In this document: piece by piece, positions 1,783 to 19,253 of the stretch | Numbering within the stretch: position 1 is the stretch's first letter | How the letters are laid out: each line of letters opens with the position of its first letter | Source: Lentimicrobium sp. | GTDB taxonomy: Bacteria > Bacteroidota > Bacteroidia > Bacteroidales > Lentimicrobiaceae | Direction of reading: 5' to 3' | Assembly (NCBI GenBank): GCA_013336205.1 | Contig: JAAXUD010000006.1 | Span: 1-19,253, forward strand | Length of the DNA: 19,253 bases | Notes under the pieces: generated by a model | Seen by the model: only the letters and a program-made list of their open reading frames with translations | Database searches by the model: none | What the model was told of the DNA's origin: nothing | Position numbers and translations under genes: made by a program

Positions 1783-2568
1783 TCACTCCTTCGCCTTGGC
1801 CTCGTTCCAGAAAACATCCAGCTCAGCCAGTGTCATATCGTGCATCGACCTGCCTGCAAGGTTTGCTTGTTGTTCAATATAATTGAAACGGCGGATAAAC
1901 TTCTTATTGGTGCGTTCAAGCGCATCTTCGGGGTTTACTTCAATAAAACGGGCATAATTTATAAGCGCGAAAAGCAGGTCGCCAAATTCATCTTCTATTT
2001 TTTCAGGCGTACCGTTCAGTTTCTCATATTGCAGTTCATTCAGTTCCTCTTGAACCTTGTCCCAAACCTGGCCTACATGATCCCAGTCGAAACCAACACC
2101 ACGGGCTTTCTCCTGGATTCTGTATGCCTTCACCATGGCCGGAAGCGATGCAGGGACGCCCTCAAGCACTGTTTTGGGGTTATCTCCATTGTTGCCTTTT
2201 TCAGTCAGTTTTATCTTTTCCCAGTTGTTTTTAACAGTCTCAGCATCGTTTGCTGTAACATCAGCGTATATATGCGGATGACGACGAACGAGCTTATCGC
2301 AAATGCCGTTGAGCACATCGGTAATATTAAAAGCATTTTGTTCCGAAGCTATTTTCGAATAAAAAACAAGATGCAGCATCAGATCTCCTAATTCGCCCTT
2401 TATTCCGTTCATGTCCTTTTCCAGGATAGCGTCACTTAGTTCATAAGTTTCTTCAATGGTAAGGTAGCGCAAGGTTTCAAGGGTTTGCTTTTTGTCCCAG
2501 GGGCAACCGGCCCTTAGTTCATCCATTATAGTAAGCAGGCGTTCAAATGCAGTTAGCCGGGAGTCCAT
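1783..2568 (-). CDS. mazG: Nucleoside triphosphate pyrophosphohydrolase MazG
   Basis: The 261-residue protein has the two-domain layout of long MazG proteins, which hydrolyse (d)NTPs to NMP and pyrophosphate as house-cleaning enzymes in the cytoplasm. Domain 1 shows CPWDKKQT (22-29), the metal-binding EExxE as EETYE (39-43) and the ExxD pair in GELGD (58-62). Domain 2 has QEELNEL near residue 175 and EDEFGDLLF near 195, again with the acidic pairs. The N-terminus (ERLLTIMDELR before CPWD) matches the family, so the ATG at 2568 is the natural start. That ATG lies inside the last unit of a heptanucleotide array, and the upstream 230 nt consist almost wholly of short tandem repeats. Confidence 0.95.
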   Translation of the reverse strand: MDSRLTAFERLLTIMDELRAGCPWDKKQTLETLRYLTIEETYELSDAILEKDMNGIKGELGDLMLHLVFYSKIASEQNAFNITDVLNGICDKLVRRHPHIYADVTANDAETVKNNWEKIKLTEKGNNGDNPKTVLEGVPASLPAMVKAYRIQEKARGVGFDWDHVGQVWDKVQEELNELQYEKLNGTPEKIEDEFGDLLFALINYARFIEVNPEDALERTNKKFIRRFNYIEQQANLAGRSMHDMTLAELDVFWNEAKAKE

Positions 2569-4121: not shown

Positions 4122-4985
4122 ATGCTTAAGCATAAGAATTTTTCCGGATTTAAATCTTTTGAAAGAGCTTTTTCAGCCACCTTTCCTGGACTTTATTCCA
4201 ATTATTTTTCAGGTATTATAACCTTTATAAAATGCCGCAGACATAACACTGCATGTACTTTTTACTTTTTACTTTTTACTTTTTACTTGTTAAGCGCCTG
4301 CACCCGCGAACAGCTCGACGACTGTTTCACCAGCACAGGGCCGCAGATTACCGAAGATCGCCCGGTTTCAGCATTTAACAGTATTGAATTGTATGATAAT
4401 GTTAATCTGGTGCTGCTGTCTGGAACTGAGCCTGAACTCAGGGTGGAAGGTGGTAAGAATGTTATAGATGCAGTTAAAACCGATATTAACGATAGCACCC
4501 TGATTATACACAATACGATGACTTGCAACTGGGTTCGCAATTTCAAAAAGGAACTCACCGTGTATGTTACCGTTACCGGTTTATATCAAATCAGGTACGA
4601 AGGTTCCGGCGACATCAGCACACAAAGTCAGTTGACATTCGATTCGCTTCAGGTAAATGTATGGGGCGGTGCGGGCTCTTTTAATCTTGACCTCAACGTA
4701 ACAAATCTGAAACTGGCCTTGCACTATGGCACAGTAGATTTCAATATCAAAGGTAACGCCTTGATAACAACCATTTTTGCAAATAGCTATGGGCCTTTTT
4801 ATTGTGACGGGCTGATGTCCAATATAGTTTATATACGTAATAGCGGAACCAACAATTGCTATGTGCATGCAAGGGATATTCTTGAAGTAGAGATTACTTC
4901 AGTCGGGGATATCTACTACTCCGGAGATCCTTACGATGTTAAGAGCAATATTACCGGCAGTGGCAAATTTGTAAAAATTGAATAA
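4122..4985 (+). CDS. Head-GIN domain (DUF2807) lipoprotein with repeat-encoded signal peptide
   Basis: Residues about 75-287 form a DUF2807 'putative auto-transporter adhesin, head GIN' domain: a beta-helix-like series of short strands, starting with the pattern FNSIELYDNVNLVLLSG and ending in the typical GSGKFVKIE. The hydrophobic segment TFYFLLFTFYLLSAC ends in a lipobox with Cys60, so a surface or periplasmic lipoprotein is likely. The start is uncertain: the ATG at 4122 leaves a 45-residue polar extension before the hydrophobic core, unusually long, and no other in-frame start exists in between. The core is encoded by a perfect 7-nt repeat (4257-4291). A second ATG at 4253 sits directly before the repeat but one frame off. 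Function within the family is not established. Confidence 0.8.
   Translation: MLKHKNFSGFKSFERAFSATFPGLYSNYFSGIITFIKCRRHNTACTFYFLLFTFYLLSACTREQLDDCFTSTGPQITEDRPVSAFNSIELYDNVNLVLLSGTEPELRVEGGKNVIDAVKTDINDSTLIIHNTMTCNWVRNFKKELTVYVTVTGLYQIRYEGSGDISTQSQLTFDSLQVNVWGGAGSFNLDLNVTNLKLALHYGTVDFNIKGNALITTIFANSYGPFYCDGLMSNIVYIRNSGTNNCYVHARDILEVEITSVGDIYYSGDPYDVKSNITGSGKFVKIE
4257..4291 (+). repeat. Coding heptanucleotide array (ACTTTTT)4 plus one variant unit
   Basis: Four perfect ACTTTTT units followed by ACTTGTT lie inside the DUF2807 gene. Since 7 is not a multiple of 3, every reading frame of the plus strand gives the same cyclic peptide (T-F-Y-F-L-L-F), hydrophobic and free of stops. The tract encodes the core of the lipoprotein signal peptide. 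The same unit occurs in noncoding arrays at 2566-2607 and 5158-5200. Confidence 0.9.
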
Positions 4986-5157: not shown

Positions 5158-5200
5158 ACTTTTTGCTTTAGACTTTTTACTTTTTACTTTAGACTTATGA
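5158..5200. repeat. Heptanucleotide array abutting the proS stop codon
   Basis: On the plus strand six 7-nt units follow in register: ACTTTTT, GCTTTAG, ACTTTTT, ACTTTTT, ACTTTAG, ACTTATG. The array ends one base before the complement of the proS TAG (5201-5203). It lies between the proS stop and its terminator at 5017-5046. Confidence 0.85.
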
Positions 5201-6676
5201 CTAGTAAGCCCTTGCAAACACCACCCTCTTTGCTGAAGGTTTTCCGGTAAGGATACATTTCCCTTCTTCAGGTTTTGAATCGAGGAGGATACAGCGGATT
5301 GTTGCCTTGGTCTTTTCTTTGATCTCTTGTTCCGTTTCAGGTGTACCATCCCAGTGTGCCAGAATAAAACCGCCTTTATTGTCAAGCAGGTCATTGAATT
5401 CTTCCCAGCTATCAGCGTTTGTCGTCATAGTTTCCCTGAAATCAAGGGCTTTCTGGAAAAGATTGTCCTGAATACTTTGTAACAGGTGTTCAACCTTGGT
5501 TTCGATGTCCTGCAACTGGTAAGTAGCTTTTTCGAGGGTGTCGCGGCGCGAAACTTCCACCGTACCGTTTTCCAGATCACGTGGGCCTATAACCAGCCTC
5601 ACCGGCACTCCCTTAAATTCATATTCATTGAATTTCCAGCCTGGCTTGTAAGTGTCACGATCGTCGTATTTAACTGAAATGCCCTTTGCCTGCAGATTTT
5701 TCTTTATCTCGTTAACTTTAACTGTTATTGCGGCAAGTTGCTCATCATTTTTTGAAATTGGAATGATAACAACCTGTGTAGGAGCCAATTTTGGAGGAAG
5801 TACCAGCCCATTGTCATCGGAATGCGCCATAATAAGCGCACCAATAAGCCTGGTTGAAACACCCCAGGAGGTCGCCCACACATGTTCAAGCTTATTTTCT
5901 TTACTTAAAAACTTAACATCGAAGGCTTTGGCAAAATTCTGGCCAAGAAAATGTGAAGTGCCTGCCTGTAAAGCTTTACCATCCTGCATTAATGCTTCAA
6001 TACAATATGTTTCAACTGCACCGGCAAAACGTTCGTTGGGAGATTTTACCCCTTTAAGTACGGGGACAGCCATGAAATTCTCCACAAAGTCGGCGTAAAC
6101 ATTCAGCATCTGTTCGGTCTCAGCAATTGCTTCTTCAGCGGTTGCATGCGCAGTATGACCTTCCTGCCATAGAAATTCAGCAGTGCGCAGAAAAAGCCTG
6201 GTGCGCATTTCCCAGCGAACAACGTTGGCCCACTGGTTGATCAACAGCGGCAAATCACGGTATGATTGTATCCAGGTGCGGTAAGTGTCCCAGATAATTG
6301 TTTCTGAAGTTGGTCTTACGATCAGTTCTTCTTCAAGTTTAGCAGTTTCATCTACAATAACGCCTTTGCCATTCGGATCCTGTTTTAGCCGGTAATGAGT
6401 AACCACCGCACACTCTTTGGCAAAACCTTCAACATGGCTGGCCTCTTTACTAAAGAATGATTTAGGAATAAACAAAGGGAAATAGGCATTTTCGTGACCG
6501 GTATCTTTGAACATTTTGTCCAGTGCAGCCTGCATCTTTTCCCAGATTGCATACCCATAGGGTTTTATTACCATGCAGCCTCTAACTGCTGAATTTTCAG
6601 CCATATTGGCCTTAATTACGAGATCATTGTACCATTGAGAATAATTCTCAGCTCTTGTAGGAAAATCTTTAGCCAT
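5201..6676 (-). CDS. proS: Prolyl-tRNA synthetase, archaeal/eukaryal type
   Basis: This 491-residue class II synthetase charges tRNA-Pro with proline using ATP. The N-terminus ([15 protein letters not shown]) and the lack of the bacterial editing insertion mark the short archaeal/eukaryal form that Bacteroidota use. Visible motifs are RPTSETIIW (121-129), motif 2 as [20 protein letters not shown] (154-173) and motif 3 with [16 protein letters not shown] (272-287). The anticodon-binding domain follows, then a C-terminal domain ending in VVFARAY; only two cysteines (in IRCI and GKCI) remain of the zinc site known in archaeal forms. The ATG at 6676 gives the usual N-terminus. It is divergent from the Tyr-rich lipoprotein gene and convergent with the DUF2807 gene. 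Confidence 0.97.
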
Positions 6677-18287: not shown

Positions 18288-19178
18288 ATGCTGTTTTCAA
18301 GTATCGACATTGGCTCAAACGCGGTCAGGCTCCTTTTTGCCAATGTTTACGAAAGTAAAGCAGGCCCGGTTACCGAGAAGGCTTCGCTTATCCGGATTCC
18401 CATCCGTTTGGGGATGGATGTTTTTAATAATGGACGCATCTCTGACCAAAAGGCAGATGATCTGGTTAACACCATGAAAGCCTTCAAGCTGCTGATAGAC
18501 GTATATAAACCACTCGGATACCGGGTAGCTGCCACTTCCGCAATGCGCGAAGCATCCAACAACGAGGAAGTAATGGCACGGGTTAAACAGGAAGCCGGGC
18601 TTGAAATCGGTATTATCGATGGGATTGAGGAAGCCAACATTATCAGTTCGCTCAGCAATGTTTTTGTCAACAAAAATTTCAGCAAAACCATCTATGTGGA
18701 TGTTGGGGGCGGATCAACCGAGATTTCCGTGCTCGATGGTGCCCGTTTTGTGACTTCCAACTCATTCCGGATCGGAACCATCCGGCTGCTGGCCGATAAG
18801 GTTGAAGAAACTGAATGGGAGGTGATGCGCAAATGGCTGAATCAGTTTAAGGCGGACTTTGGCCGGATGAATTGTATCGGTTCAGGAGGCAACATTAATA
18901 AAATTACCAAGATGTATGGCTATCCGATTAACAATATGGTCAACTTTGACCAACTCCAATATGCCTACAAGCAGTTGAACAGCATGCCGCTTGATTTACG
19001 CATTGAGCGAATGGGTCTACGACCCGACCGTGCTGATGTAATTGTACCTGCCGCCCGTATTTTTATTAAAATTTTGAAGTGGACCGATATCAATGTGATT
19101 ATTGCCCCTAAAATCGGATTGGCAGATGGCCTGGTGTTGCTGCAGTATAAGGAGATGAAGGAAAGTGGGGTGATTTGA
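18288..19178 (+). CDS. Ppx/GppA-family phosphatase (exopolyphosphatase or pppGpp phosphohydrolase)
   Basis: 296 residues, the short form with only the two ASKHA-fold domains and no C-terminal HD or helical domain. The phosphate-1 loop is SIDIGSNAVRLL (5-16), followed by ATSAMREA (82-89), the catalytic glutamate in DGIEEANII (111-119), and the phosphate-2 loop DVGGGSTE (138-145). C-terminal APKIGLADG is the family's usual ending. Family members remove terminal phosphates from polyphosphate or pppGpp; sequence alone does not tell which. The start ATG at 18288 is 50 nt after lpxH. A heptanucleotide array begins on the base after its stop codon. Confidence 0.93.
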   Translation: MLFSSIDIGSNAVRLLFANVYESKAGPVTEKASLIRIPIRLGMDVFNNGRISDQKADDLVNTMKAFKLLIDVYKPLGYRVAATSAMREASNNEEVMARVKQEAGLEIGIIDGIEEANIISSLSNVFVNKNFSKTIYVDVGGGSTEISVLDGARFVTSNSFRIGTIRLLADKVEETEWEVMRKWLNQFKADFGRMNCIGSGGNINKITKMYGYPINNMVNFDQLQYAYKQLNSMPLDLRIERMGLRPDRADVIVPAARIFIKILKWTDINVIIAPKIGLADGLVLLQYKEMKESGVI

Positions 19179-19253
19179 TTTGCGGTTTGCGATTTACAAA
19201 TGACGAATAACGAATAACGAATAACGAATGACAATTGACGAATGACTAATAAT
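19179..19253. repeat. Heptanucleotide array starting directly after the ppx/gppA stop codon
   Basis: Ten consecutive 7-nt units in register plus a partial one, running out of the window: TTTGCGG, TTTGCGA, TTTACAA, ATGACGA, three ATAACGA, ATGACAA, TTGACGA, ATGACTA. The pattern drifts stepwise from TTTGCGA to ATAACGA to TTGACGA. The first unit starts on the base after TGA (19176-19178). Confidence 0.9.

Follow-up and report, generated by a model that had tools for sequence, protein, structure and literature searches.

A gene-edge type of heptanucleotide array as the probable signal-peptide core of a predicted DUF2807 lipoprotein in Lentimicrobium

The stretch of DNA analysed here (the window; 19,253 nucleotides from Lentimicrobium sp., contig JAAXUD010000006.1 of assembly GCA_013336205.1) carries on its plus strand, at positions 4122-4985, a gene for a predicted DUF2807 (PF10988) lipoprotein of 287 residues, and this report concerns an array of heptanucleotide repeats that lies inside this gene. 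The gene was assigned from its open reading frame (ORF) and from the Pfam model, which the window protein matches with an E-value of 5.5e-33 and 114.7 bits against a cut-off of 24.2. The array, (ACTTTTT)4 followed by the variant ACTTGTT, is at 4257-4291 on the plus strand, with the four perfect units at 4257-4284 and the variant at 4285-4291; Tandem Repeats Finder (TRF) calls it at 4256-4292 with a period of 7, 5.3 copies and 96% matches. A 28-mer of four units, with up to 3 mismatches allowed, has 3 matches in the window, namely, two registers of the coding array and 5158-5185, and 0 matches in 200 dinucleotide shuffles of the window. The match at 5158-5185 is part of a sister array (ACTTTTTGCTTTAGACTTTTTACTTTTTACTTTAG, 5158-5192, plus strand) that lies just beyond the ProRS stop codon (gene at 5201-6676, minus strand).

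The array encodes residues 46-57 (TFYFLLFTFYLL), the h-region of a predicted signal peptide. It is preceded by an N-terminal extension of 45 residues (4122-4256, plus strand) and is followed by a putative lipobox, L57-S58-A59-C60 (4290-4301, plus strand; Cys codon 4299-4301), so that the 59 residues before Cys60 are made up of the extension, the repeat-coded core and S-A of the lipobox. A type II signal peptide has a charged n-region, a hydrophobic core and a lipobox ending in Cys, and the window protein appears to fit this pattern with K37, R39 and R40, the core at residues 46-57 and L-S-A-C. The initial annotation had described the array as encoding the hydrophobic core just before Cys60 of a DUF2807 lipoprotein, and the sequence, the ORF, the Pfam match and the shuffled controls (0 of 200) bear this out. 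Its statement that the unit reads T-F-Y-F-L-L-F in every frame is likewise correct, and this cycle has no stop.

The pattern ACTTTTTACTTTTTAC has 91 matches in the genome to which the window belongs (G000; 4.1 Mb in 914 contigs, 89.75% complete) and the reversed pattern, used as a control, has 0. Within the genus the pattern matches in eight of 19 genomes; the reversed control matches once in G017 and four times in G013, a genome with a single match to the pattern proper. The 23-mer was found in five of 295 genomes drawn from the order, G000 included; in G144, which is among those five, the reversed control has 18 matches against 1 for the pattern. The surroundings of the matches were taken from six of the eight genomes of the genus (116 regions including the window, 631.7 kb), G004 with 25 matches and G006 with 1 match being left out. 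In G000, 45 of 48 merged arrays are intergenic. The three exceptions are the window array, an array that overlaps a stop codon by 4 nt and an array in a TTG-started leader that was called as an ORF, and we judge the window array to be the sole truly coding one of the 48.

With a minimum of three [AG]CTTTNN units per array, and an overlap of 80% as the rule for lying within a called gene, 114 of the 124 arrays in the six genomes did not qualify as lying within one. Genes were called with a simple hexamer-based program that begins each ORF at its first start codon. The ten arrays inside ORFs comprise six on the same strand ahead of a likely ATG, which were sorted by eye (one of them, L126, is also supported by other genomes), three antisense at gene 3' ends, and the window array. 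At a looser threshold, 13 period-7 runs were found in 436 called genes, and by eye ten of these lie ahead of a likely ATG, two at 3' ends and one is the window array. The antisense arrays cover the last codons of their genes (L080, 1659-1693; L122, 2976-2996; L163, 4139-4159). Since the AAAAAGT strand holds TAA in every frame, such an array can supply the stop codon.

These arrays have a fixed orientation towards gene edges. Among 88 intergenic arrays flanked by two genes, the 3' end of the ACTTTTT strand is nearer to a gene edge than the 5' end in 79, with median distances of 11 nt for the 3' end and 187 nt for the 5' end (two-sided binomial p for 79/88 of 4e-15, a value that ignores shared ancestry). 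Nine of the 88 do not show this polarity, and in 17 the distance to the edge ahead exceeds 70 nt. Per genome, the polarity is seen in 30 of 32 arrays in G000, 21 of 22 in G012, 20 of 23 in G010, 6 of 8 in G017 and 2 of 3 in G011. The edge faced by the 110 arrays that have a gene ahead is a stop codon in 61 and a start codon in 49. Sixty-nine arrays come within 30 nt of the edge ahead, and 48 of these finish with a partial unit, ACTT or GCTT. The median gap to the edge is 6 nt for the 20 that face starts and 4 nt for the 28 that face stops, the start-side distances being biased short by the gene caller. The 292 intergenic regions that were chosen for holding an ACTTTTT-type array contain 195 period-7 runs, compared with 0 in letter-shuffled sequence and 2 in the interior of genes; among the other periods from 4 to 15, period 14, a multiple of 7, gives 141 runs, period 8 gives 28 and each remaining period gives 4 or fewer. 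For the 75 runs whose units belong to families other than ACTTT, the strand reading outward is the G-richer one in 54 cases and the C-richer one in 18 (p 3e-5), and a bias in purine content is weaker (45 against 29), some of the 75 rows being overlapping runs of one array.

Heptamers of this general kind have been reported from other bacteria. The excerpts of Rehm et al. 2015 (PMC4692102) available to us describe GGGAATC and GGGGA(C/T)T heptamers of Xanthomonas and Nostoc, and place intergenic GGGAATC-type repeats almost exclusively nearer the 5' neighbouring ORF in any ORF orientation; in the same excerpts G-quadruplexes are discussed, no role in regulation was found and phase variation is deemed unlikely. 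As far as these excerpts go, the ACTTTTT class resembles the heptamers of Rehm et al. in its strand polarity and in occurring at shared genes of two species in arrays of differing length. At starts as well as stops, one strand reads outward from whichever gene edge is nearer, and the location is mostly non-coding (45/48), the window array itself being coding. The differences are that the units of the ACTTTTT class are A/T-rich and without G-tracts, that several unit families coexist and that one array is coding; by its sequence AAAAAGT has no G-tracts able to form quadruplexes. The class is not a filed member of the GGGAATC family. The excerpts of MacGregor 2015 (PMC4679880) deal with TAACTGA repeats of Beggiatoaceae, Cyanobacteria and five Bacteroidetes, for which a role in translation is proposed, and cite a survey in which heptanucleotides are the commonest category in most genomes. 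TAACTGA repeats are like the present ones in being intergenic heptamers near start codons, with further heptamers beside TAACTGA in Bacteroidetes; the unit here is ACTTTTT, and the proposed translation role belongs to TAACTGA. In the open-licence literature, judged by title and the start of the abstract, we found no heptamer array that acts as a signal-peptide core.

The arrays also change between genomes. By eye, 14 of 33 between-genome gene pairs show arrays of the family at the same edge in both genomes, and unit counts differ at seven of the eight shared intergenic edges checked among these 14. The start of a gene that we take to be mnmA-like (L182-L197) could be read by eye at 16 of 17 loci, of which four have TTTTTAC-type heptamers, seven have GAAATC-type heptamers and five have none visible. 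Reading outward, GAAGT precedes the heptamers in six of the 11 arrayed loci (one TTTTTAC-type and five GAAATC-type) and ACAAGT does so in three, which hints that arrays at these loci may grow outward from a seed near the gene. The decay of units with distance from the edge was considered as a clock for the direction of growth, because both perfect units and units of the family become sparser past units 3-6, and was rejected; it tells little on this point because the array definition forces the first three units to match.

In some arrays the run of heptamers is broken by a hairpin piece. Nine such places were listed, eight of them in G012 and one in G000, and the commonest composite form, ACTTTTTAC-CTGTCTGCCTGTGGCAAACAGGCAGG-CTTT, accounts for four of the eight from G012. 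The hairpin piece encodes a lipobox-like L-S-A-C. Translation of the G012 composite element in one frame gives TFYLSACGKQAGF, 13 residues, which has an exact match in the signal peptide of P0004, a homologue of the window protein known from its protein sequence. Since the P0004 peptide is identical to the G012 element, this homologue bears in its signal peptide what its relatives bear outside genes or in leaders. Rickettsia palindromic elements, as described in the excerpts of PMC10969869, are about 150 bp long and lie in frame inside ORFs of unrelated genes. The likeness is that interspersed repeats stand in frame within proteins, and the difference is that here the repeats are heptamers (in P0004 together with the equivalent of a 27-nt hairpin piece) and lie in signal peptides of one family. 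The hairpin piece, about 26-33 nt long (CTGTCTGC...CAGGCAGG), was seen inside arrays of L112, L115, L116, L123, L124, L131 and L133 in G012 and L068 in G000. Other recurrent motifs in the fetched regions are CCTGTCTGCCTG with 34 occurrences, four of them within called genes, a motif ending in CGGGTAAACTT that precedes several arrays in L076 and L093 of G000, and GCGTCGGGTAAACTT with 3 occurrences, all in G000 regions.

A search with the window protein (P0001) gave 191 proteins at E <= 0.001, and the N-termini of the first 103 were read. P0002 and P0003 are 89% and 86% identical to P0001 and have the same predicted start and the same 59 residues before Cys, so that the length is equal in three lineages; their cores are TFYFLLFTFY and TFYFLLFTFS, respectively. 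Identity to the window protein in P0002 and P0003 is 29/35 and 27/35 over residues 1-35 (71-83% over the three pairs among P0001-P0003), 2/10 and 4/10 over residues 36-45 (20-40% over the three pairs) and 10/12 and 11/12 over residues 46-57. Repeat-like cores, a label that we assigned from the protein sequence, are present in 13 of the 103 proteins, for example LFTFYFLLFTFFFLTSC in P0006 and LFTFHFSLFTLSLTTSC in P0039. The 13 proteins require at least three changes on a tree built from 99 mature domains, and nine of them, including the window protein, form one branch with support of 92/88, which is below the tool's mark of 95/80. In an alignment of 15 chosen homologues Cys60 is invariant, and core and Cys are joined without a gap in 10 of the 11 repeat-type members; in P0004 nine additional residues are present there. 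A repeat-like core was seen as DNA in one orthologue, L046 of G017, where by eye degenerate heptamers (acttttcacttttaactttgagcttttcgtttattactttaaac) lie at the same place in the signal-peptide DNA. An array-free orthologue, L031/L038 (L038 from G018), has a long open N-terminus. The gene order PagL-DUF2807-ProRS is retained in relatives. The proposal in the initial annotation that the repeat is a ready-made core wherever it lands holds in part, because the array is a core here and 13 of 103 homologues have repeat-like cores, but in its own genome 45 of 48 arrays are intergenic.

Based on these results, we propose that an array of the gene-edge type probably reached the lipobox of the lipoprotein gene and was kept in frame as its signal-peptide core. 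The arrays of the genus normally sit just outside gene edges with the ACTTTTT strand directed into the gene; at this locus the array lies inside the DUF2807 gene, which it would have entered by overrunning the 5' edge, and extends to the lipobox, the first strongly constrained residues. The array would be usable as a signal-peptide core because its translation is hydrophobic and free of stops in every frame, and selection would have kept its length in frame. The start codon used is probably that at 4122, the protein is predicted to be exported and lipidated at Cys60, and selection presumably still holds the reading frame. The DUF2807-ProRS interval, which is 215 bp in the window against 8-150 bp, free of such heptamers, in 13 relatives, favours the addition of sequence at that edge in this one case.

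Several points weigh against this proposal. The signal peptide of the window protein was read from its sequence solely by the general rule given above; the repeat coding of P0002-P0011 is deduced from peptides, and their starts are predictions of a gene caller. The divergence among P0001-P0003 is smaller than that of the intergenic comparison, and N-terminal length is highly variable across the first 103 proteins of the family. Since the four aligned members without repeat-like cores are also free of a gap between core and Cys, constant spacing alone is no proof of selection on the repeat. The distance from the PagL stop to the Cys codon, 244 nt here and 85-270 nt in relatives, is compatible with insertion, in-place growth and overwriting alike. 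Overwriting had been considered from the equal 59-residue length in array-free L031 and was dropped because the alignment needs gaps. It may also be that a T-rich signal-peptide stretch turned repetitive by slippage in place and has no connection with the intergenic arrays. Such sequence is tolerated in signal-peptide cores, and the array-free orthologue L031/L038 already has a T-rich core with the same core spacing; we nevertheless consider such local drift unlikely, the unit being shared, with the same polarity, with arrays elsewhere in the genome (91 matches against 0 for the reversed pattern) and P0004 containing a composite repeat element.

The other alternatives concern the start codon and the reading frame. 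Before Cys60 the only in-frame ATG, GTG or TTG is the ATG at 4122, besides a TTG within the last unit (4287). Translation could instead begin at another site, such as a non-standard codon a short way ahead of the core, in which case the extension of 45 residues would be mostly an untranslated leader. This would agree with the short segments of 15-27 residues before Cys in many family members and with the poor conservation of residues 36-45, but residues 1-35 are 71-83% identical across three lineages with the same predicted start and long open N-termini are also found in several array-free orthologues, and hence we regard a start elsewhere as rather unlikely. The initial annotation had put forward the out-of-frame ATG at 4253-4255 (plus strand) as an alternative start. 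Its arithmetic is right, since this ATG is 46 nt from the Cys codon at 4299 and loss of one unit (39 nt) or gain of two (60 nt) would bring it in frame. Either product would start M-Y-F-L-L with no positively charged residue before the core, and would lose K37, R39 and R40, which the current frame places before the core. Of the refuting observation that it had named, an extension kept in orthologues without the repeat, only part is seen: P0002 and P0003 have retained both the extension and the repeat, and the long N-terminus of array-free L031 aligns only with gaps.

Frame switching of the DUF2807 gene is possible, and the initial annotation had read the locus as a phase-variable surface lipoprotein; in that case slipped-strand events that add or remove 7 bp would switch the frame. 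According to the excerpts of PMC3960869, CTCTT repeats in the leader-peptide coding region of Neisseria Opa vary in number and switch expression; here too a short repeat whose unit (7 bp) is not divisible by three sits in the coding region of a leader peptide. Besides this precedent, phase variation is favoured by the four perfect units in the signal-peptide region of a predicted lipoprotein, by the varying unit number of intergenic arrays of the class between species, and by work cited in the excerpts of Rehm et al. (PMC4692102) in which enrichment of short repeats near N-termini is read as a sign of phase variation. However, whereas the Opa repeat varies, the window array shows one length in three lineages: P0002 and P0003 share with P0001 the predicted start, the number of residues before Cys and the core, and this speaks against the claim. 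Ten of 11 repeat-type homologues have no gap between core and Cys, the start at 4253 yields no charged n-region, the array has just four to five units, and housekeeping genes, among them ProRS and the presumed mnmA-like gene, are flanked by arrays of the class too. We consider phase variation of this gene very unlikely.

Other heptamers are present in the window. AAAGTTA/AAGTAAA heptamers (2575-2604, no strand assigned) lie beyond the start of a MazG-like gene (1783-2568, minus strand) with the polarity of the ACTTTTT class. A TGCCCTG array (2725-2798, no strand assigned) has its G-rich strand, CAGGGCA, reading away from the start of a PagL-like gene at 2885. The whole interval between these two genes that spans 2569-2798 consists mostly of short tandem repeats (AAAGTTA, AATTACAG of period 8, TCCATGC and TGCCCTG), in which the CAGGGCA strand points outward from the PagL-like gene and the AAAGT strand likewise from the MazG-like gene. 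AATAACG/AATGACG heptamers (19199-19252, no strand assigned) follow a gene stop at 19178.

More broadly, and tentatively, several phyla may share a process that adds heptamers outward from gene edges with a fixed polarity, for any unit and at both kinds of edge, start and stop; species would swap units at one edge while the bases nearest to the gene stay alike, as at the mnmA-like gene, and arrays would occasionally enter genes and supply new signal-peptide cores. We hold this general proposal to be somewhat doubtful. If the reading proposed above for the DUF2807 gene is right, it would provide a route by which repeats that are normally non-coding become a working part of a protein, and the polarity of heptamer arrays at gene edges would need no G-quadruplexes. 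A further phylum, in which a single genus has several unit families, would then be open to tests of how the arrays arise, and a repeat in a signal peptide need not signal phase variation. The polar A/T-rich heptamer arrays at gene edges described here extend a known, unexplained phenomenon.
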